Below are positions 5,854-27,899 of a stretch of DNA of 44,861 nucleotides, in pieces. The notes beneath the pieces were generated by a model. That model made no database searches and was not told the DNA's origin. It saw nothing but the letters and a program-made list of their open reading frames with translations. Made by a program: the position numbers and the translations under genes. This stretch comes from Deltaproteobacteria bacterium (GTDB taxonomy: Bacteria > Bdellovibrionota_C > UBA2361 > OMII01): contig CANLCB010000006.1 of the NCBI GenBank assembly GCA_947488865.1, forward strand, positions 1 to 44,861, read 5' to 3'. Position 1 is the first letter of the stretch, and each line of letters begins with the position of its first letter.

Positions 5854-6023
5854 TCCAGCGATTTCTGGATAATATCCTAACAATTACGTGTTCAGGCTTA
5901 CCGTAAGTAGCCGTGTGCCAAAACAGGTAACCAACCAATACAAATAGCTTTCTACAGGATTCACACCTAAAACTGAGGCGCTAGCACCATCTGAATACGA
6001 TGACTTTTGTTAGCAAACCCCTC

Positions 6024-6029
6024 TATACT
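6024..6029 (+). promoter_or_regulatory. -10 box 6 nt before the nucleoside hydrolase GTG (leaderless)
   Basis: TATACT is followed by six bases (AGCTGC) and then GTG. There is no Shine-Dalgarno before the GTG. The spacing places the transcription start at or next to the start codon. A TGACTT lies 17 bp upstream as a weak -35. Confidence 0.5.
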
Positions 6030-6035
6030 AGCTGC

Positions 6036-7004
6036 GTGACCAACTTAATCCTCGACGTCGATACTGGTGAAGATGACGCTCTTGCGATCCTTCTGGCGGC
6101 CAACCTCAAGCTTGGATTAAAGCTTGTAGTAACGAGCTACGGAAACTCAGTCGTCGAAAACACGACGAGAAACACGGTTGGAGTAGTCGCCTTAACCGGC
6201 CTCAAGGACTGCCCCGTTTTCAAGGGAGCGCCACGCCCATCCCACAAACACCTTCACTTCCTAGACAGCGAGAAAGAATGGGAAAGCGCGGAGGATTTTC
6301 TTGGCGGCGATGGCCTTTGCGGTATCGTACTCCCTACCCCCTCTTCGGTCCCGGTAATCACCCCGCCCGAGTCTGAACGTGTTGAGCAACTTGCTGAGCT
6401 GGTCAAACGTCACGCTCCCATTCATTACGTCGTGACAGGCCCATGCACAAACCTTGCGGAGCTTTGCTCCTATTTCGGTAGTGACATCGGAAAGTACATC
6501 ACAAAGATATCATTGATGGGAGGAGCCTTAAACATCGCGGGAAATAGCGGGCCGCGAGATCCAAGGAACGGCAACCAATTCGCTGAATTTAATTTTTACT
6601 GCGACCCGTACGCGGCTAACGAGGTTTTCAAATGTGGAGTGCCTGTCTACATAGTCGCCTGGGACACCACCTTTCGTCTCACTATCCCGATATCAAAGGC
6701 AATGACCCTCAAAGCGCGCGACAAAAAAACCCGATTTATCAGAAATCTAATCATACGTTTCTTTAAGATTTACGGCCTCAAACACAATCGCGAGTTCGAA
6801 TTTAACGATCCCGCCGCCGTCTGGCTTCCACTCTTCGCGCCCGCGCAATTCAAGGAGCGAAGACTTGAGGCCATCACAACAGCGAATGGGTTCGGACGGC
6901 TCAAAGAAACTTCGAATGGTTCTCCAGTATTCTTCCATTCATGCAAGAATGAGCACATTCAGGGCATTATTCATGAGCTTCTAGAGGCACTCCACCTCAA
7001 CTAA
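6036..7004 (+). CDS. Inosine-uridine-preferring nucleoside hydrolase family protein
   Basis: Nucleoside hydrolases cleave the N-glycosidic bond of nucleosides to give a free base and ribose, using a Ca2+ held by an Asp cluster. The N-terminal ILDVDTGEDDALAI is that cluster (D-x-D-x-G-x-D-D). SLMGGAL followed by EFNFYCDPYAANEVF is the second family block. Near the C-terminus FNDPAAVW replaces the usual HDPxA: the metal Asp is kept but the His that helps leaving-group activation in classical enzymes is Asn. The track starts at ATG 6000; I prefer GTG 6036 because it puts the metal motif at the family's usual place near the N-terminus and has a -10 box at leaderless spacing. Substrate is unknown. 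It may feed ribose to the ribokinase at 18798-19676. Confidence 0.85.
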   Translation: MTNLILDVDTGEDDALAILLAANLKLGLKLVVTSYGNSVVENTTRNTVGVVALTGLKDCPVFKGAPRPSHKHLHFLDSEKEWESAEDFLGGDGLCGIVLPTPSSVPVITPPESERVEQLAELVKRHAPIHYVVTGPCTNLAELCSYFGSDIGKYITKISLMGGALNIAGNSGPRDPRNGNQFAEFNFYCDPYAANEVFKCGVPVYIVAWDTTFRLTIPISKAMTLKARDKKTRFIRNLIIRFFKIYGLKHNREFEFNDPAAVWLPLFAPAQFKERRLEAITTANGFGRLKETSNGSPVFFHSCKNEHIQGIIHELLEALHLN

Positions 7005-7016
7005 CGCGCTGCCGCA

Positions 7017-9260
7017 CTAACTCGCAGTTTTTTTTGCGGCCCCAAGATTCACCTGAACCTGTTCCCGAGCCCGAACCACCGGAACGCAATACTGCGCTCG
7101 AGATTGCTCAATGGCTTCTGCGGAATAGTTGTTTTCAGCATCTGGATACATAAGATTCAGAGTCGAACCCGAAAATGATTCCTGCACCTCACCGTTGACA
7201 CTCATTTTGAGATAAAAGTTCCTCAGCGGCAGGTTCAACAGATCGGAGCTCCCAAAAACTGGCTGAAACTCCTGAGCGATAAGCCCAGCGTCGTCAGCTC
7301 CCACTCGAAAAGAAAGGAGATTGGCGACGTTGCCGAAAACCGTATTTTTGATTGACGCTGGCAACTGACCTAAGAATTGATGCGCGACGGTCAGACATAA
7401 ACGATACTTACGAGATTCACTCAAGATTTCTCCGAACGATTCGGTGGCAAAGTTTTGCATCTCATCCACATAGAGATAGAAGTCCTTACGATTCTCCATA
7501 GGGGTATCCGCTCGGGACATCGCGGCCTCGTACATTTTCCAAATGAGTAGAGAACCAAGGAGCGACGCGTTGTCGGCTCCTAACACACCTTTCGAAACCT
7601 TCAGAAGAACAATCTTACCGTTGTCCATGAAGTGCCGAAAATCAAAAAGATTCTCAGACTGCCCCAAGATGTTTCGCATCATTTCGGTGGACAGCAGTTC
7701 GTCGAGCCTATTCAGCAGCCGAGAGATAGGGCCGTCCTCGAATTCCTGTCGTCGCGCGACAAAATCACGCAACCAGAAACGTTTTACAGATTCGTCACTT
7801 GCTCGCCGCACGATATCAGTACGAAAGGCCTCGTCCGACAACATTCGACGGAGAGAGAGAATCGTAGACCCCGGCGCGCTGATCAAACCAAGCATCGCAT
7901 AGCGCAGGACATGGTCCATCTTTTCAGACCAGTCTGAACCAAACACTCGCTTAAAGGCATCAAGGAAGCTTAACGCCACGCGCACCTTCAACTCGGGATT
8001 AACGGGACTTACTGGATTAAAACTAGCTGGAAACGCGGTGTCTGACGGATCGAATATCACTACATCATTTAGTCGATGCTTCGGGATTAACCGCAAAATA
8101 TCATCAATCAAGTCTCCATGGGGATCTATGACCGCGCAGCCATGTCCTTTATTGATATCACTCTGCACCAGAAGCTGTAGCAAGCACGACTTCCCACTTC
8201 CAGACTTACCAAGAATGTAGAGATGTCGCCGCCTATCGAAACGACGAATACCAAACGGAATTTTGTGATCACGAAAATCAGAGAGCCCGAAGAAGGAGAT
8301 GTCGTTATCTCTCTTGTCCGCCGGCAGAGCTTTAGGTGGCGGAGACTTCTTCGCTAGTACATACGCGGTATTTGGCAACGCTCCCATGAGCGGAGGATGG
8401 AACAAGGTAGATAACTCCAAAGGCGACATCCGATACGGCTTGTCGAAACGACGTTGAGCCACCTTCTTGAGTGCGGCAGCTCCGGTCTCAAGCCTTCCCA
8501 TGACGAAGCGATTCTCATCTACTGTGTCGAAGGTTTTTACAGCGTCGGCCAACTTCCGTATATGCGCCGACAAACGGGTGTTGGCCTCCGCGCGAGCGCC
8601 CGCAGGCGCCTTATGAGGAAGATCGGTGAAAGCACTGATACGATAATTAGCCATGAGCATATGCCGCGAGCACTTCTCGCGAATCCTCTTCAAGCTCTCA
8701 AGGGGCAGACCTTTCTTAAGCCATGTCCGAGGTCGGAAAACATTAACCAACTTGTCCTTTGACCGGGCTTGGGCAAGCGAAAGGTGCAGCCATGGCGAAT
8801 CCTTCAACGGACGAACGATAAGCTGCAAAAGCATGTTATCTCCCTCCGGCAGCTCAGAGAGCGCGCTTATAATACCCGAGAGGGTCTCACCTTTTATTCG
8901 TGTAAAATTATTGATGGGATAGATATCAGGCCGCCACAATCGCATGTCGGTTGATACCCCGACAGTGCTGCTAGAGAACCGAGAGGTATAATCCTCAATT
9001 TCATGAATCTCACTGTCAGGCAACCATGCGTACAAGCCAGTCATTAAAAACTCAAGAATGTCGTCGGAGCCGGCAAAGCAGATAAAAATCATCTTACCGG
9101 TAGCGAATAACTCCATGGAGAATGGCTCCCACATGCTTTCGCAAATGTCGTCCAGTTGATGCTCCAAATTTCTTGGTGGATACAGATCCCACGTAACGTC
9201 ATATAACGCGCCAATATCGCTGACGGTTCTTCGCGGAATGTGGAGGCAGATAACTCGCAT
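7017..9260 (-). CDS. VirD4/HerA-like DNA-translocase-type ATPase, copy 1
   Basis: A 747-aa P-loop ATPase of the VirD4/TraD/HerA superfamily. A shared N-terminal domain (about 1-230, beginning MRVICLHIPRR) has no motif I can name. The ATPase core follows: Walker A GKSGSGKS near residue 350, the IDPHGDL block, Walker B LYVDEMQNF near 595, and a sensor-like VAHQFLGQLP. No transmembrane segment is evident, unlike conjugative VirD4. The track extends to 9305, but the paralog at 10460-12709 starts exactly at the matching Met, and TATAAT lies 7 nt upstream of it, so I start at 9260. No relaxase, VirB4 or pilus gene is nearby. Known relatives pump DNA or protein through a ring; the substrate here is unknown. 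Confidence 0.85.
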   Translation of the reverse strand: MRVICLHIPRRTVSDIGALYDVTWDLYPPRNLEHQLDDICESMWEPFSMELFATGKMIFICFAGSDDILEFLMTGLYAWLPDSEIHEIEDYTSRFSSSTVGVSTDMRLWRPDIYPINNFTRIKGETLSGIISALSELPEGDNMLLQLIVRPLKDSPWLHLSLAQARSKDKLVNVFRPRTWLKKGLPLESLKRIREKCSRHMLMANYRISAFTDLPHKAPAGARAEANTRLSAHIRKLADAVKTFDTVDENRFVMGRLETGAAALKKVAQRRFDKPYRMSPLELSTLFHPPLMGALPNTAYVLAKKSPPPKALPADKRDNDISFFGLSDFRDHKIPFGIRRFDRRRHLYILGKSGSGKSCLLQLLVQSDINKGHGCAVIDPHGDLIDDILRLIPKHRLNDVVIFDPSDTAFPASFNPVSPVNPELKVRVALSFLDAFKRVFGSDWSEKMDHVLRYAMLGLISAPGSTILSLRRMLSDEAFRTDIVRRASDESVKRFWLRDFVARRQEFEDGPISRLLNRLDELLSTEMMRNILGQSENLFDFRHFMDNGKIVLLKVSKGVLGADNASLLGSLLIWKMYEAAMSRADTPMENRKDFYLYVDEMQNFATESFGEILSESRKYRLCLTVAHQFLGQLPASIKNTVFGNVANLLSFRVGADDAGLIAQEFQPVFGSSDLLNLPLRNFYLKMSVNGEVQESFSGSTLNLMYPDAENNYSAEAIEQSRAQYCVPVVRAREQVQVNLGAAKKTAS

Positions 9261-9267
9261 AGCTGGT

Positions 9268-9273
9268 ATTATA
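9268..9273 (-). promoter_or_regulatory. Consensus -10 box 7 nt before ATPase copy 1 (leaderless)
   Basis: On the minus strand a perfect TATAAT is followed by ACCAGCT and the ATG. There is no Shine-Dalgarno. A convincing -35 is not visible (ACAGGT lies at 17-bp spacing). Confidence 0.6.
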
Positions 9274-9455
9274 CGCTTTAGGACAATTAACCTGTAGGCA
9301 AACAATAAGCCTATACTAGCCCGTTAGAGAGCCTTACTGAAGCACCGTAATAATTTAATATTGCTCGACAAACAGCCCCTCACACCCAAACTCTGAGCTA
9401 CTCCCCTCCTAATTGCTCTCAGGATGCCCCACAAGTGCGCTTAAACCACGCAGCT

Positions 9456-10430
9456 CTACGAAAAAAGCCCCCGCTCCACCGACGGCAGACGAGCGCCCAA
9501 TTGAGCCACCACACGCCCAGCAAGGGCAGCCGCAACTTCCGCAGACTCCCTCGCAGTGTAGTTGTTCGCAATCCCATACAGAAACGCCCCAGCAAAAGAG
9601 TCGCCCGCCCCTGTGGCATCGACCACATCAACCGGAGGTACCCGCAGCTTAAACTCCTCGCGCCCGTAGCGAATCAAAGATCCCTCTCGTCCAAGAGTCA
9701 TGACTACATTACCCGACAACTCCTGGAGATGGGCAAAAGCGCCATCCACGTCTCGGATCGCAGTCAGGGCGTCCGCCTCACTCTGATTAGCGAAGAGCAG
9801 ATCCGAACATCGAGCTAACTGAATAATTTCTTCCCTGAAGTGAATCGCCACGGCTCGAGATCCAACAGACAACGCTATTCGAGTCCCGGCGCTCCGAGCC
9901 TTTTTAACCACCGCTTCGAGCATATCCATTGTTCGAGGACCGTTGGTCGCAAGATATCCCTCTAGCAGCACCCACGCAGATCGTGAGATCATTTCGGAAT
10001 CTATATCCTCAGGCCCTATATCCTTAGATACTCCCAGAGAGGTACACATGGTTCGCTCACCATCAGGCGTAACGAACACGATGGAAACACCGGTCTTCCC
10101 CTCAGCGGATATCGTAGAGCTACGGACAATCCCTCGTTGGTCTAATTCCTCCCTAAACAATGCTCCGAAATCGTCCATCGCGGTTCGGCCGATGAACGCG
10201 CCTCTTCCTCCAATTTGGCTCACCAGATAGATGGAATTAGCTGCCGACCCTCCGGTGCCATGCCGAAGCCGGCATTCAGGCAACAACCCAAGGAGCTTCA
10301 GACAATCCTCATCATGTATAAGCCCCGAGGACCCTCGTTCAAGTCCGAGGCCAATAAAAGAATGTTCATCGAGACGCGCCTGTACGTCCACGAGCGCATG
10401 CCCAATTCCACACACTGAAAGAGCTTTCAT
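9456..10430 (-). CDS. PfkB-family sugar/nucleoside kinase, adenosine-kinase-like
   Basis: A 324-aa ribokinase-fold kinase. The N-terminal GIGHALVDV and the GTGGSAANSI motif resemble adenosine-kinase-type PfkB proteins that phosphorylate a nucleoside or sugar hydroxyl with ATP. The C-terminal DATGAGDSFAGAFLYG supplies the anion hole and catalytic Asp. The track ORF runs 45 codons further upstream, but AAGGAG sits 9 nt before the ATG at 10430 and the protein then begins at the usual family position, so I use that start. It lies 29 bp downstream of ATPase copy 2 on the same strand and is probably co-transcribed with it. Substrate cannot be read from the sequence; adenosine, another nucleoside or a sugar are possible. 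Confidence 0.88.
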   Translation of the reverse strand: MKALSVCGIGHALVDVQARLDEHSFIGLGLERGSSGLIHDEDCLKLLGLLPECRLRHGTGGSAANSIYLVSQIGGRGAFIGRTAMDDFGALFREELDQRGIVRSSTISAEGKTGVSIVFVTPDGERTMCTSLGVSKDIGPEDIDSEMISRSAWVLLEGYLATNGPRTMDMLEAVVKKARSAGTRIALSVGSRAVAIHFREEIIQLARCSDLLFANQSEADALTAIRDVDGAFAHLQELSGNVVMTLGREGSLIRYGREEFKLRVPPVDVVDATGAGDSFAGAFLYGIANNYTARESAEVAAALAGRVVAQLGARLPSVERGLFS

Positions 10431-10459
10431 GGCTTCAACTCCTTCCTCCCCGCCAGGCG

Positions 10460-12709
10460 CTATCTGCCGCCCATTATTCGAGGCGACATAATTTCCGACA
10501 GCGCGAGCTGTTCCTCTGCTTGGGCTAGAGGAATCGAGTACTTTGCGCGCGATTGCGCGATACATTCCTGTACAAGCGACTCCGTCGCACGCGGATACGC
10601 TACGTCCAATGTTCGACCTGAGAAAGCTTCCTGAACCTCGCCGTCGATACTCATCTTCACATAAAACTCTCGAAGAGGAAGATTCAACAAATCCTCCGCC
10701 CCAAAGCGCGGCTTAAATTCTCCTGAAACCGTAGCGGCATCTTCAGCTCCGACTCTAAAACACAAGAGATTCGCGATATTGCCAAAAACAGTTTCTTTCA
10801 CCCCGCTCGGCATCTGACTTAGGAACTGATTCGCGAACGTCAAACACAACCGATACTTTCGAGACTCGCTGAGAATTTCTCCGAATGAGCTGGTGGCGAA
10901 ATTTTGAAATTCGTCCACGTAAAAGTAGAAATCCTGCCGTTGCTCGACGGGAATGTCAGCTCGGGACATCGCGGCTTCGTAGATCTTCCAAATAATCAAC
11001 GAACCCAGAAGCGCCGCGTTCTCCGCGCCTAAAATTCCCTTTGACACCTTGAAAAGAACTATCTTACGCGAGTCAATGAACTCCCGGAAATCAAACGTGT
11101 TGGTCGGCTGGCCCAAAATATTCCGGATCATATCCGTCGCCAGCAGCTCATCAAGCCTGTTAAGTAGCTGCGAGATTGGACCTTCCTCGAATTCTTGCCG
11201 ACGAGCGACAAATTCCACTTCCCAAAATCGGCGCACGGCCTCATCGGGATTTCGTCGCACCACTTGCGACCTAAATTCATCATCTGAAAGCAAGCGACGA
11301 AGAGAAACGATGCTAGCCCCCGGAACATTCAACAATGCGATCACCGCGTAACGCAGCACGTGATCCATCTTTTCAGACCACGAGTCGCCAAAAACCTTCT
11401 TGAAAGTGTCAAGAAAGCCCAGGGTAACCCGCATTTTTTGATCCGGATTAATCGGGATCATCGGATTGAAACTTGGAGGATGCTTAACATCGGACGGATC
11501 AAAGATTACAACGTCCTTAAGTCTGTATTTCGGGATGAGACGTAAAACATCGTCCACGAGGTCGCCGTGAGGGTCAAGGATCGCGCAGCCAAACCCATTT
11601 TCGATATCACTCTTGGCGAGCAGCTGCAGAAGACATGACTTACCGTTACCGGATTTACCAAGCACATAAAGATGACGACGCCGATCAAATCGTCGGATAC
11701 CAAACTTCGTAGATTGGCTACGGTAACTAGTCTCTCCAAAGAAGCTTATTTGGGGATCCTCTTGAGTCGCGGGCAGCGTCGGTGGTGGCGGAGCCTTCTT
11801 GGAAAGCACCATTGCCGTGTTAGGCAATCCACCAAGAGTCGGCGGATTCCACAGAGTGGAAACCTCAAGAGTCGACAGTCGAAACGGTCTATCAAAGCTG
11901 CGCTCCTGAGCTTTTCGAAGCGGAGCCTTACCAAACTTAATTCGTCGATTTCCGAATTTATTCTCGTCAAACGCATTCAGAAACTTAACGGTATTGGCTA
12001 CATGACGGACGTTGGAAACAAGTCGCCCTTTAATCCGTGCCCGCTCAGGTGTTGAGGCCCTCTCTGGCACTTCGGTGAACGTAGTAATCCGGTAGTTAAC
12101 CTTGAAAAGGCGTGAAAGCGCCTTTTCATTCATGAGCTTCTGAGTATCGTTGAGAAGATCCTTTTTCAGCCAAGTCTTTGTCCGAAAGAGCTTCAGAAAC
12201 CGATCGTAATAACGGGTCAAAGCGAGGTTGAGGTGCAACAACGAGGTATCTTCAAGCGGTTTGACGATAATCTGAATGAGCATTCTATCGCCTTGTCCGA
12301 TGCGCGAGAGAGCGGCGAATACAGGCCACAACGTCGACCACACGAACACTTTGAAGGTTTGGATTGGATAGATGTCTGGCCACTCCAGGTACATATCGGT
12401 ACCAGCGATCATCGTACGCTCAGTTATTTCATGTGTGTAGTCCTCGATGGGATGACATTCCAAGTCAGGGTAGTAGCCGTACATCCCTGTCGTCAAAGTC
12501 TCTAAAGTTTTTTCGCCTCCCGCTATACAGGCGTAAATAGTCCCATCTTTAGCGTAGAACTCTAGAGAAAAGGGGGCACTCCCCGTCGCGCTCAACTCGT
12601 CCAGCTGCGTCATGAAGAAATTGGAATTCATCCACCCCCACTTGGTGGTGTAGAAAGCCGCACCGATCGAACTTGATTGCCTTGGCAGGTGTAAGCAGGA
12701 AACTCGCAT
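10460..12709 (-). CDS. VirD4/HerA-like DNA-translocase-type ATPase, copy 2
   Basis: A 749-aa paralog of the ATPase at 7017-9260, collinear along the whole length. The N-terminal domain (1-230, MRVSCLHLPRQ) is more divergent, while from FGIRRFDRRRHLYVLGKSGNGKS onward the two are very similar. Walker A is at 351-358, DPHGDL at about 378 and Walker B FYFYVDEF at about 593-600; an RRQEFEEGPISQLLNRLDELL block is shared. No membrane segment is seen. The ATG at 12709 has no Shine-Dalgarno. It is followed 29 bp later by the PfkB kinase and then by copy 1, so a duplication has been split by, or has bracketed, the kinase. The two may form a hetero-hexamer or act separately; that is inference. Confidence 0.85.
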   Translation of the reverse strand: MRVSCLHLPRQSSSIGAAFYTTKWGWMNSNFFMTQLDELSATGSAPFSLEFYAKDGTIYACIAGGEKTLETLTTGMYGYYPDLECHPIEDYTHEITERTMIAGTDMYLEWPDIYPIQTFKVFVWSTLWPVFAALSRIGQGDRMLIQIIVKPLEDTSLLHLNLALTRYYDRFLKLFRTKTWLKKDLLNDTQKLMNEKALSRLFKVNYRITTFTEVPERASTPERARIKGRLVSNVRHVANTVKFLNAFDENKFGNRRIKFGKAPLRKAQERSFDRPFRLSTLEVSTLWNPPTLGGLPNTAMVLSKKAPPPPTLPATQEDPQISFFGETSYRSQSTKFGIRRFDRRRHLYVLGKSGNGKSCLLQLLAKSDIENGFGCAILDPHGDLVDDVLRLIPKYRLKDVVIFDPSDVKHPPSFNPMIPINPDQKMRVTLGFLDTFKKVFGDSWSEKMDHVLRYAVIALLNVPGASIVSLRRLLSDDEFRSQVVRRNPDEAVRRFWEVEFVARRQEFEEGPISQLLNRLDELLATDMIRNILGQPTNTFDFREFIDSRKIVLFKVSKGILGAENAALLGSLIIWKIYEAAMSRADIPVEQRQDFYFYVDEFQNFATSSFGEILSESRKYRLCLTFANQFLSQMPSGVKETVFGNIANLLCFRVGAEDAATVSGEFKPRFGAEDLLNLPLREFYVKMSIDGEVQEAFSGRTLDVAYPRATESLVQECIAQSRAKYSIPLAQAEEQLALSEIMSPRIMGGR

Positions 12710-12933: not shown

Positions 12934-13695
12934 ATGCGCACACCATCCTTAACGATAAAAATGATTGGAGTCGGGGAGGCTTTCGATCCTGCCCTGGGAA
13001 CCTGCTCATTCCTGGTGAAAGGAGGCCCTACTCTCCTGATCGACTGCGGCTACGGCACTCCGTTTTTCCTATTCCAGGAGCTCAGCAATGGAAACGAACT
13101 GGAGGCCGTGTACCTCACCCATTTTCATGCAGACCACTATTTCGGACTTCCTATCCTTCTTGGAGAGCTCGAAGACCTCGGAAGAACCTCTCCCTTAACT
13201 ATCCTCGGTCAAAAGGGTCTCGCAACCAAGGTCATCGACCTTTGCGAAATGGCCTATCCTGGAATGTTTAAGGCTCTGCCCTATCCTGTCATCTTTGAGG
13301 AATTTACCGACTCAACAAGCTTTCGGGACCTGACGCTTCGCACCGCACTGTCGTCGCACAGCGTTCCCAATTACGCCATCTCAGTGGAGCGAAACGGAGT
13401 AAAAGCAGGCTTCAGTGGAGACGGAGCGCTCACCCCAGCGTCTAAACAACTACTCAGTGAATGCTCCGTGGTATTGCATGAGTGTTTCGTTCCTCGAAAC
13501 GCATCCACTAACCACGCAGCGGCAGCCGATCTCTTCCAAGCTTTCCAAGACACGCCCGGTTCCATCAAGCGTTTATACCTTGTGCATCTACAAAAGGGCC
13601 TTCGAACCAAAGAATCGGCGAGCTTTCTACCAGCCGAGCCCCTTCCGTTTGAGGTCGCGATACCGAACCAGGGAGAGGTAATCAGCGTGGAATGA
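12934..13695 (+). CDS. MBL-fold metallo-hydrolase (RNase Z/PQQ-like family)
   Basis: A 253-aa metallo-beta-lactamase-fold protein. The zinc motif THFHADHYFG (HxHxDH) is present, preceded by the LIDCGYGTP strand. Further metal ligands are suggested by LSSHSVPNYA, FSGDGALTP (the Asp position) and HLQKG near the end. The arrangement resembles ribonuclease Z-like hydrolases, though the long exosite arm of tRNase Z is absent, so a small-molecule phosphodiesterase or arylsulfatase-like role is just as likely. GAGG lies 7 nt before the ATG. It is divergent from ATPase copy 2 (224-bp gap) and its last 14 bp overlap the end of the convergent IMPase-family gene. Confidence 0.85.
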   Translation: MRTPSLTIKMIGVGEAFDPALGTCSFLVKGGPTLLIDCGYGTPFFLFQELSNGNELEAVYLTHFHADHYFGLPILLGELEDLGRTSPLTILGQKGLATKVIDLCEMAYPGMFKALPYPVIFEEFTDSTSFRDLTLRTALSSHSVPNYAISVERNGVKAGFSGDGALTPASKQLLSECSVVLHECFVPRNASTNHAAAADLFQAFQDTPGSIKRLYLVHLQKGLRTKESASFLPAEPLPFEVAIPNQGEVISVE

Positions 13696-24450: not shown

Positions 24451-24578
24451 TAGCGGACAAAAGATAAACGAAAGTAAGCCCTTGCTCAAAACAGAGGATT
24501 TTTATCCCCTATCGCCCCCTTCTCAAGCAGCCCCCTACTTTTTAACGAGCCCTCTGCCTTTGTAGCCCTCTTTTGTGC

Positions 24579-24584
24579 TACCCT
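24579..24584 (+). promoter_or_regulatory. TANNNT -10 box 6 nt before the SNF2 gene (leaderless candidate)
   Basis: TACCCT is followed by ATCGGG and ATG at 24591. No Shine-Dalgarno is present and no clear -35 is seen. Confidence 0.4.
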
Positions 24585-24590
24585 ATCGGG

Positions 24591-27500
24591 ATGATCGGGT
24601 CTCATCCTTCCGCTAAATCTAAGATTCTAAGCCACCTCAAAAAGCTCGCTCCGTTCTCAGTTGTGGAGCGAGGAATCAGTTGGGCTTCCCAGGACATGGT
24701 TTCTGATTGCAACGGGTCAGCTCACGCCGTTACCGGTGTTGTTCGCGAGGATGAAAATACCACTCACACAGTATCCCTCTCAATCCTCTCGTCTCACGAA
24801 GTTGACGCGACCTGTACATGCTGCTCTCACGGTGACATGCAAGAGCAATGGTGCGCCCACGCTGTCGCGCTCCTATGGCGCGCCGCCGACCTTGATTTCT
24901 TTGAACCTCGCGGCGGTTTTGGCGAGCGGGAGTCCACCTTTCGGGTAAATTCAAGCTCACCTCAAGAGATAGCAACCGCTATTCGCGAAGTGCACTCGCT
25001 AGAGCAGTCGCTATCGGTACCCGACGGCTCGGGAGCTCCACAACCCAAGCTCTGCACGCCTGAGGTTTCGATCATTCTCGACCTCTCAAGCGATCGCCTC
25101 GGTATAAGAGTAGCTTTCGATGACCAAGAACAAGAGCCCACTATCTTCGAAGGGTTTAAGTTCGTATCCACTCGCGCGCTTGACAATCTGCTTCTTCAAA
25201 TCCTTGAAGACGAGGGGTCGTGGGACGAGACTTCTCGCCTCTGGTTCATCAACTCGAGCAAGGGCATTGAGCTTATTCTGGGGCTGTTGGAAGAATATAA
25301 AGATGTCCTCAGCATCCGAAATCTCCAACCCATAAAGGTCAGCCACATCCCCCTAAACGCGAAGCTCTCGATGTCGTGGCACCAAACGTCACTTGAACTC
25401 GCGATGAGCTGGCTCGTATACTCGGGCGAGAAGCGCGTAGAGCTGTCTCGCAATCAGGACATCTTCGGAACGGGCCCTTTCTGGACTCTCGTTGACAACA
25501 CAATTTATCGGCTCTCGCCGCAGGCGGCTCGCATCGCGTCAATCTTTGGCTCAAGCCACTCCCTCACCCTCACTCGAGCTCAGGTAGGACCGATCCTCGA
25601 AGTGATGAATGAGCTAGGCTCCGACACCTTTGGCGCTCTTCATGTGTCGAACCCAGAGCTGCAACCCTCTGTAGAGATCAAGGACCCAACCCCAATCCTT
25701 TATCTAGAGCGAAGAGATGTCGCGTCAGACCACTTTACATCACACCGCAGCATTGAACTTTCAGCGGTTATTGACTTCGAATACCCTTCTCCTCCATCGA
25801 GCTCGAATACAGTTTACTTACGAAACCGGAAACAGGAAGCTGAGCAGCTAGCCCTTCTTTCGTCGCTAGGATTCTCAAGCACTCCAGAAAACCGCCGCTA
25901 CTCAATTCAGGGCGATGCCGCTCTCGATTTCATCCACGAAACGTACAAGCAGCTTGAGGAGCCGTGGAAGGTTCACGGTTTAGACATCGTGAAGAAAGGA
26001 GTCCGATTCGCGGACCTCCGCATAGCTGTGGCCCTCTCTGGCGCCTCCGCAAAGCGAGATCTCGACGATCTAGAGGACGCAAAATCCTCGGAGAAGCGTG
26101 GAGGTTCTATTGATTGGTTCGACTGTCACGTATCAGTGGTACAAAACAACGCGAACCTTCCCCTGTCAGCGGTGTTCAAAAACGCCCGTGGAGATAACGA
26201 TCGGTGGACTCGTCTTGATAGCGGCGCGTACGCGCGTATTCCAGGCGGAAACGTAGCGCAGCTTCGAACTATTCTTGGAATGGTCGATCCTAACTGCCGT
26301 GTCAGCAACACCATCAAGACCCGACTCTCCCTCGCTCAAGCGATCAGCCTTGGTCGCATTAACGACGCCGGATTCTCAGTTTCGCTCGATAGAAAGCTCG
26401 CGGCTCTCAACGCGAAGCTCTCCTCATTCTCAGAGATAAAGCCAATCTCAGCGTCGAAAGGGTTTAAAGGGAAGCTTCGCCACTACCAAGAGGAAGGTAT
26501 TAGCTGGCTCAACTTCCTTCACGAATTCGAACTCGGTGGAATTTTGGCGGACGAAATGGGACTTGGAAAGACGGTCCAAGCGCTCGCGTTCTTCCAACAC
26601 CTTCGCGAAAAGCGCGGAAAAAAGAAGGGGCAAAAGCCAATCCTGATCGTCGCCCCAACATCAGTAATCACGAACTGGAACTACGAAGTTAGAAAATTCA
26701 CGCCAGACATGAAGGTCGTGATGCTTCACGGACCAGGAAGAAAGGCACTATTCGAGCAGGTTCCAGAAGCCGACATCGTCCTCACTTCGTATGCCCTACT
26801 CCGAGTGGATCGGTACGACCTAGAGCGGTACGAGTTCTCCCACATCGTCCTTGATGAGGCACAGAACATTAAGAACCCACAGGCCGCGACCACGAAGGCC
26901 GCAAAGAGCATTCGCGCCCGATACCGCCTCGCGTTAACAGGTACACCGACCGAGAACCGTCCAATGGAACTCTGGTCGATCATGGACTTCCTGATGCCAG
27001 GCTATCTGGGGTCGTATGAGTTCTTCAGAGCCAACATCGAGCGTCCGATCCTTGAGGGAGGAACGTCAGTCAACGTGGCGCAGCTCCTAAACGCCAAAAC
27101 ACGGCCATTCATCCTCAGACGCCTCAAGGCGGACGTAGAGAAAGAGCTTCCACCTAAGATTGAATCAGTACTTCACGTTGAAATGGCCGCAAGTCAGCGA
27201 CAAATGTACAGTCAGATCCTTAACGAAGTTCGACCAAAAGTCTTCGACGCTATCAAGAAGAAGGGCATCCAAGGGGCTAGCGTTTCGATCCTTGCCGCCC
27301 TCCTCCGACTTCGCCAGGTCTGTAACCACCCGAACTCTATCGAGGCCTTCGAAGATCTTGAGGGATACGAGTCCGGTAAGTTCAATCTGTTGAAGGATCT
27401 CACTGTCGAGGCCCTTGAATCAGGACGGAAGATTCTTCTGTTCAGCCAGTTCCGAGGAATGCTCGGCATCATCCGCACATGGCTCCAAGAGATTCAGGTC

Positions 27501-27899
27501 AACCACCTCTATCTCGATGGAAATACTAAGAATCGACAGGAGCTCATCGATCAATTTACCAACGATGAGTCCGTTCGCCTCTTCCTCATTAGTTTGAAAG
27601 CGGGAGGATCCGGTCTCAACCTTATGGCTGCGGACACGGTTATCATTTACGATCCTTGGTGGAATCCAGCAGTTGAGAGCCAAGCGGTTGATCGCGCACA
27701 CAGAATTGGACAGAACAAAACAGTTTCTGTGTATCGTCTCGTAACAGAAGACTCCGTTGAACAGAAGATCATGGCGCTTAAAGAGAAGAAGTCTAAACTT
27801 GTTGACGCTCTCGTTAACGAGAATGGACTCTCAACTCTCAAGCTCGCTAAGACCGACCTCGAAAGTCTCTTCAGTCCGCTTCCCGAAGCGGGAGAGTAA
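24591..27899 (+). CDS. SWIM-domain SNF2-family helicase
   Basis: A large SNF2/RapA-type double-stranded nucleic-acid translocase. Near residues 75-100 a SWIM zinc finger (CTCC...CAHAVALLW) precedes a ~500-residue region with no motif I can name. The motor occupies about 630-1100: DEMGLGKTVQAL (motif I), VAPTSVITNWNYE (Ia), LDEAQNIKNP (II, DEAQ), LALTGTPTENRPMELWS (III), then LLFSQFRGMLG (IV), LKAGGSGLNLMAAD (V) and DRAHRIGQNKTV (VI). The track begins at a TTG; the ATG at 24591 has a -10-like box 6 nt before it. Bacterial SWIM-SNF2 proteins are thought to remodel nucleoprotein or stalled polymerases; the exact role is unknown. It is followed by an IHF/HU gene 450 bp on. Confidence 0.92.
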   Translation: MIGSHPSAKSKILSHLKKLAPFSVVERGISWASQDMVSDCNGSAHAVTGVVREDENTTHTVSLSILSSHEVDATCTCCSHGDMQEQWCAHAVALLWRAADLDFFEPRGGFGERESTFRVNSSSPQEIATAIREVHSLEQSLSVPDGSGAPQPKLCTPEVSIILDLSSDRLGIRVAFDDQEQEPTIFEGFKFVSTRALDNLLLQILEDEGSWDETSRLWFINSSKGIELILGLLEEYKDVLSIRNLQPIKVSHIPLNAKLSMSWHQTSLELAMSWLVYSGEKRVELSRNQDIFGTGPFWTLVDNTIYRLSPQAARIASIFGSSHSLTLTRAQVGPILEVMNELGSDTFGALHVSNPELQPSVEIKDPTPILYLERRDVASDHFTSHRSIELSAVIDFEYPSPPSSSNTVYLRNRKQEAEQLALLSSLGFSSTPENRRYSIQGDAALDFIHETYKQLEEPWKVHGLDIVKKGVRFADLRIAVALSGASAKRDLDDLEDAKSSEKRGGSIDWFDCHVSVVQNNANLPLSAVFKNARGDNDRWTRLDSGAYARIPGGNVAQLRTILGMVDPNCRVSNTIKTRLSLAQAISLGRINDAGFSVSLDRKLAALNAKLSSFSEIKPISASKGFKGKLRHYQEEGISWLNFLHEFELGGILADEMGLGKTVQALAFFQHLREKRGKKKGQKPILIVAPTSVITNWNYEVRKFTPDMKVVMLHGPGRKALFEQVPEADIVLTSYALLRVDRYDLERYEFSHIVLDEAQNIKNPQAATTKAAKSIRARYRLALTGTPTENRPMELWSIMDFLMPGYLGSYEFFRANIERPILEGGTSVNVAQLLNAKTRPFILRRLKADVEKELPPKIESVLHVEMAASQRQMYSQILNEVRPKVFDAIKKKGIQGASVSILAALLRLRQVCNHPNSIEAFEDLEGYESGKFNLLKDLTVEALESGRKILLFSQFRGMLGIIRTWLQEIQVNHLYLDGNTKNRQELIDQFTNDESVRLFLISLKAGGSGLNLMAADTVIIYDPWWNPAVESQAVDRAHRIGQNKTVSVYRLVTEDSVEQKIMALKEKKSKLVDALVNENGLSTLKLAKTDLESLFSPLPEAGE

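Follow-up and report, generated by a model that had tools for sequence, protein, structure and literature searches.

The window analysed here, a stretch of 44,861 nucleotides, lies on contig C6 of the genome of an uncultured bacterium (1.47 Mb, 70% complete), the relatives of which are recorded as deltaproteobacteria, and carries on its minus strand two ATPase genes with a PfkB adenosine-kinase-like gene between them: ATPase A (7017–9260; 747 aa), the kinase (9456–10430) and ATPase B (10460–12709; 749 aa). All three genes, with both ATPases full-length and their Walker A and B motifs intact, are where the first-pass annotation had placed them, and the neighbouring nucleoside hydrolase is indeed an IU nucleoside hydrolase (6000–7004, plus strand, opposite to the ATPases). 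Upstream of ATPase B a divergent gene encodes an RNase Z-like MBL-fold hydrolase (12934–13695, plus strand). ATPase A begins at the ATG at 9260 and not at the TTG at 9305 of a longer open reading frame because its homologues begin at MRV. The overlap of the kinase reading frame with ATPase B is an effect of an upstream ATG (the longest open reading frame starts at 10565); the likely start is the ATG at 10430, which has a GGAGG ribosome site and lies 29 nt past the ATPase B stop, and with this short gap and good ribosome site the kinase is probably expressed after ATPase B. From the kinase stop to the start of ATPase A there are 195 nt. Promoter and terminator scans found nothing above chance.

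The kinase belongs to the PfkB family (E = 2.7e-45) and has the PfkB domain with its GAGD motif; the closest solved structure by sequence is 3ubo, named "adenosine kinase" (1.5e-44). A further, distant PfkB kinase gene is found on the same contig (18798–19691). The other genes of the contig are for core functions, for example gyrA, gyrB, tmk (thymidylate kinase) and transketolase, and the GC content is even. At 24573–27899 the window encodes a large SNF2-type protein (1108 aa) with strong PADLOC matches to DpdE and ZorD, which is probably a common bacterial SNF2 helicase.

ATPases A and B can be aligned over 738 amino acids without a gap and are 57% identical. Their Walker A motifs read GKSGSGKS and GKSGNGKS and their Walker B motifs YLYVDEMQN and YFYVDEFQN, respectively. 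The Pfam families DUF87, TrwB_AAD_bind and T4SS-DNA_transf match both proteins above cut-off, and TraG-D_C matches B, so that on family matches and identity the earlier assignment of A and B as paralogous ATPases of the VirD4/HerA superfamily is well founded. The two proteins share one architecture, which in B consists of an N-terminal domain (approximately residues 30–290) and a motor (approximately residues 321–700) with Walker A at residue 351 and Walker B at residue 595. In a monomer model of ATPase B, built from 13 relatives and of middling quality (pLDDT 77, pTM 0.55), the motor matches TrwB (TMt 0.56–0.65); longer stretches match VirB4 and HerA, with poor superposition. The N-terminal domain, which is covered by no Pfam family, was modelled separately (pTM 0.77) and has an alpha/beta fold, the seven best structure matches of which are to R388 TrwK/VirB4 (probability 0.99–1.00, TMq 0.41–0.47). 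The VirB4 family CagE_TrbE_VirB (PF03135) gave no sequence match on A or B.

A search for homologues of the N-terminal domain, as had been proposed, led to conjugation-type ATPases of Gram-positive plasmids and to some phage proteins. For example, a coupling-type ATPase from an Embleya plasmid, standing there among PrgI, a VirB4-like ATPase and a Replic_Relax gene, shows full-length profile homology to the family (P 100, columns 47–704) and is also found with the N-terminal domain by itself (P 95.9, E = 5.6e-9), 12 shuffled controls all giving 0.4% or less. Proteins from Bacillus and Shouchella plasmids, the genes of which adjoin "replication-relaxation" genes, and gp156 of phage G match the N-terminal domain with 94.7–95.3%. 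A Bradyrhizobium plasmid protein was rejected, since only its motor is related and its N-terminus is not. In Bacillus phage G (L128:2196–6338) the full-length relative gp156 directly follows gp155, a second ATPase, which is annotated as VirB; the structure search with the N-terminal fold matched both.

With relatives of this kind it should be asked whether A and B belong to a conjugation locus. The first-pass annotation had denied this, and its view is borne out by soluble proteins, core-gene neighbours and the distribution of VirB4. Hydropathy, the only measure used, indicates no transmembrane segment in either protein (maximal KD19 1.54 in A and 1.56 in B), no relaxase, VirB4, pilus or phage family was found among the window genes scanned, and NurA was found in none of the neighbouring genes scanned. 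PF03135 is detected in none of 12 genomes of the genus; four further families of the order have it, as does one control genome. A search for Replic_Relax gave no match in the genus, nor in any control, and is therefore uninformative with respect to a relaxase. It should be noted that the statements on absence rest on relatives that are up to 97% complete, the absence of a gene from the present genome being weak evidence at 70% completeness. As judged from the genes and their relatives, the conjugation-type ATPases found here are soluble proteins of the chromosome that have been inherited vertically, and their genus has no detectable VirB4.

A functional link between the ATPases and the kinase, the other proposal made for this locus, did not survive a survey of gene neighbourhoods. 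Among 29 genomes of the order an ATPase match was found in 24. Nine other species of the genus have one A and one B orthologue each, always on different contigs and in none of the nine with a PfkB-type kinase beside either gene. In these relatives B stands in the order DUF2520, Na/H antiporter, UDP-glucose pyrophosphorylase, phosphomannose isomerase, B, saccharopine dehydrogenase, aminotransferase, class II (D/K/N) tRNA synthetase, and A stands with NadA, BatD, thiamin pyrophosphokinase, a C-terminal fragment of FlhB and a sensor kinase. The ATPase-kinase-ATPase order is found in the present genome only and thus does not reflect a conserved system; a kinase adjacency that is not conserved in relatives is what the first-pass annotation had itself given as grounds for refuting its proposal. 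No orthologue of the kinase occurs in the genus; its best homologues in other members are 31–39% identical and lie elsewhere. Likewise, no orthologue of the MBL gene upstream of ATPase B was found in the genus, and homologues of the IU nucleoside hydrolase occur in only some relatives (best 40%), where they are not next to the ATPases. By these comparisons the kinase between A and B is probably an unrelated, locally acquired gene, and the gene order carries no functional message.

The neighbourhood in which B is found in the relatives is present in this genome too, on contig C10, with its order kept and B missing. Approximately 420 nt are found where B is expected (L096:8734–9155), and blastn and tblastn of this gap revealed no relict of B. 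Thiamin pyrophosphokinase and NadA, the neighbours of A in the relatives, were not found in this 70% complete genome. Either B has moved in this genome or the ancestor of the other species has split an original tandem pair; this genome branches first in both the A and the B clade with moderate support (81/79 and 88/58, respectively), which fits either course.

In a phylogenetic tree 10 A and 10 B proteins form one clade (100/100), which is split into A (100/98) and B (100/100), with the species grouped alike in both. This matching grouping points to a single duplication at the base of the genus, followed by vertical inheritance. Since both copies have been kept, A and B are probably not redundant. 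It is true, as had been noticed from the sequence, that the motor halves of A and B are very similar (71% identical) and the N-terminal 320 amino acids much less so (43%). This does not mean that the two proteins bind different partners, as had been concluded. Indeed, the window's A differs from its own orthologues in the A clade just as much (42% in the N-terminal part and 74% in the motor), which suggests that the N-terminal domain evolves fast throughout and that its divergence is not particular to the paralogues; N-terminal divergence was therefore rejected as a mark of different partners. When all A are compared with all B, only four positions distinguish them (A458G, R493K, V498R and Q514R), which are too few for a functional claim.

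Most families of the phylum have a single copy of the ATPase. Within the same order, however, families f6 and f13 have it in head-to-tail pairs that are translationally coupled, six in number, with one each in G005, G026 and G027 and three in G028 (L065, L066, L067, L073, L075, L079). The spacing within the pairs is −83 to +9 nt, mostly −4 to +3. The first member keeps the motifs DCHGD and DEFQN, whereas in the second member DPHGD is altered (DPDGAL, APSSEL) and the Walker B glutamate is lost in four of the six (DD, DA, DQ, DN). In the tree the first members make up one clade and the second members another, and their distance matrices are correlated with r = 0.993, only 2 of 720 relabellings being equally good, a value that is no more than indicative since the six pairs are related. 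The intact/degraded pairs thus appear from the tree and the distances to have been duplicated as units, which suggests that a two-subunit machine is plausible in these sister families. Indirectly, these two-paralogue operons also speak for the hetero-ring that A and B might form, as had been proposed. The window's two ATPases do not make up a pair of this type, however, since both are intact and derive from another, later duplication. Should the intact/degraded pairs assemble into mixed rings, they would lend themselves as a natural model to the question of how many active subunits a DNA-pumping ring needs at least.

Other genes are found near ATPase homologues outside the genus. A cysteine-rich family (c18, approximately 560 aa, with terminal treble-clef fingers) has genes in the vicinity of the single-copy ATPase, both in several families and on a Gracilibacteria contig (L064:12720–18000, L115:8736–10412, L116:3–3984, L114:1–447, L013:5999–7675). 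In genome G037 it is the only copy of the genome, with overlapping open reading frames; in G043 and G001 it is expanded to 25–30 copies. As a partner of the window's ATPases c18 was rejected: it is linked with the ATPase elsewhere, in other families, but is missing from the genus of the window. In genomes G025 and G024 (L060:1377–7537, L061:9086–15357) the ATPase adjoins an Eco57I-type N6-methyltransferase and a TPR protein.

We consider it probable that A and B are orphan, chromosomally fixed conjugation-type ATPases of the FtsK/HerA superfamily that combine a VirD4/TrwB-like motor with a VirB4-like N-terminal domain and have been co-opted as DNA translocases. By analogy with these families they would most likely assemble into six-membered rings and, driven by ATP hydrolysis, pull DNA (or a DNA-protein substrate) through the central pore, the VirB4-like domain serving as a dock for a partner or substrate. 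The co-opted role would be in DNA handling or DNA exchange, and it is probably cellular since there is no channel, relaxase or membrane anchor. A transport of DNA across the envelope is uncertain, A and B being soluble and without partners, and intracellular repair, chromosome handling or even protein handling would fit the same anatomy. A somewhat bolder reading, which we regard as rather improbable, is that the family provides the motor for a cellular DNA-transport machine, derived from conjugation and as yet undescribed, with two paralogous subunits; these would be an active and a degraded ATPase encoded as a coupled pair in the sister families, and two active paralogues, unlinked in most species, in this genus.

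A and B could instead be subunits of a domesticated DNA-exchange machine like the crenarchaeal Ced system, importing or exporting chromosomal DNA via a channel encoded elsewhere. In Ced the import of chromosomal DNA requires CedB and CedD; these are HerA-superfamily ATPases paralogous to each other, their N-terminal domains are VirB4-like, and they too occur in genomes without VirB4 (PMC11868833). A and B show the same combination of domains in a genus in which VirB4 was not found, and the NCBIfam model of CedD matches both with E = 1e-8, albeit with 33–34 bits versus a cut-off of 600. However, A and B lack a transmembrane segment, neither a CedA/VirB6-like nor a pilin gene was recognized next to them, and they are duplicates at the level of the genus in a phylum in which most families have a single copy. 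This reading is therefore unlikely. Still less probable is a part in an anti-phage defence system of the HerA or Mad8 type. The PADLOC models for mad8 (E = 5.5e-13) and HerA match both ATPases, and in two species of another family a single ATPase adjoins an Eco57I-type methyltransferase, but the matches are confined to the motor common to the superfamily, no other mad genes were found among 14 window proteins scanned, and neither of the two conserved loci of the genus has a nuclease, methyltransferase or other defence partner. Furthermore, the inheritance is nearly universal and follows the species tree, unlike that of defence islands.

It is most improbable that A and B are the remnant of an integrated conjugative element or phage, even if Gram-positive plasmids and Bacillus phage G encode relatives of both motor and N-terminal domain; both copies are intact and conserved throughout the genus, and a mobile-element origin of the window's copies was rejected on the basis of the even GC content and of neighbours such as gyrA, gyrB, tmk and transketolase. 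Finally, a conserved system in which a nucleoside kinase works with the translocases can practically be dismissed. The common strand, the 29 nt gap and the good ribosome site make co-transcription of B and the kinase plausible in this species, but the nine relatives have A and B apart, each with fixed housekeeping neighbours and no kinase, and the best kinase homologues of the genus (31–39%) are elsewhere; with this a false lead towards a kinase-translocase system is removed.

As probable co-opted conjugation-type translocases A and B can be compared with several known systems. With the VirD4/TrwB coupling proteins they share the RecA-type motor, the family T4SS-DNA_transf, in B also TraG-D_C, and both Walker motifs; they differ in having no membrane anchor and no relaxase or VirB4 nearby, and in being chromosomal and vertically inherited. 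To the coupling-type ATPases of the Embleya, Bacillus and Shouchella plasmids they are homologous over the full length, motor and N-terminal domain. VirB4 (R388 TrwK) is alike in the fold of the N-terminal domain, whereas the motor of A and B is VirD4/TrwB-like by family matches, PF03135 does not match and there is no secretion system. With HerA-NurA they have in common the motor superfamily and the lack of a membrane anchor; the N-terminal domain, however, is a VirB4-like alpha/beta domain and not a HAS barrel, and no NurA was seen among the neighbours scanned. CedB and CedD resemble them in being a pair of paralogous HerA-superfamily motors, each with a VirB4-like N-terminal domain, and in the lack of a relaxase; yet membrane helices occur in approximately half of the Ced-type ATPases and channel partners are known there (PMC11868833), neither of which was seen for A and B, and as paralogues A and B are younger. 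In Patescibacteria 5,713 VirD4 homologues were found in 2,918 genomes, only 148 of them near virB4, and exaptation has been considered (PMC12102498). These orphan VirD4-type ATPases, distant from virB4 and possibly exapted, are similar to A and B, and a Gracilibacteria protein that is 40% identical is placed inside the tree of the present ATPases; the phylum is a different one, however, and here a fixed pair of paralogues is found in a genus without detectable VirB4. Conjugation-type motors have become ordinary chromosomal genes, passed on by inheritance, in much of a candidate phylum, as has been reported of Patescibacteria, and A and B add to a known kind, the orphan VirD4-type ATPases already reported there.
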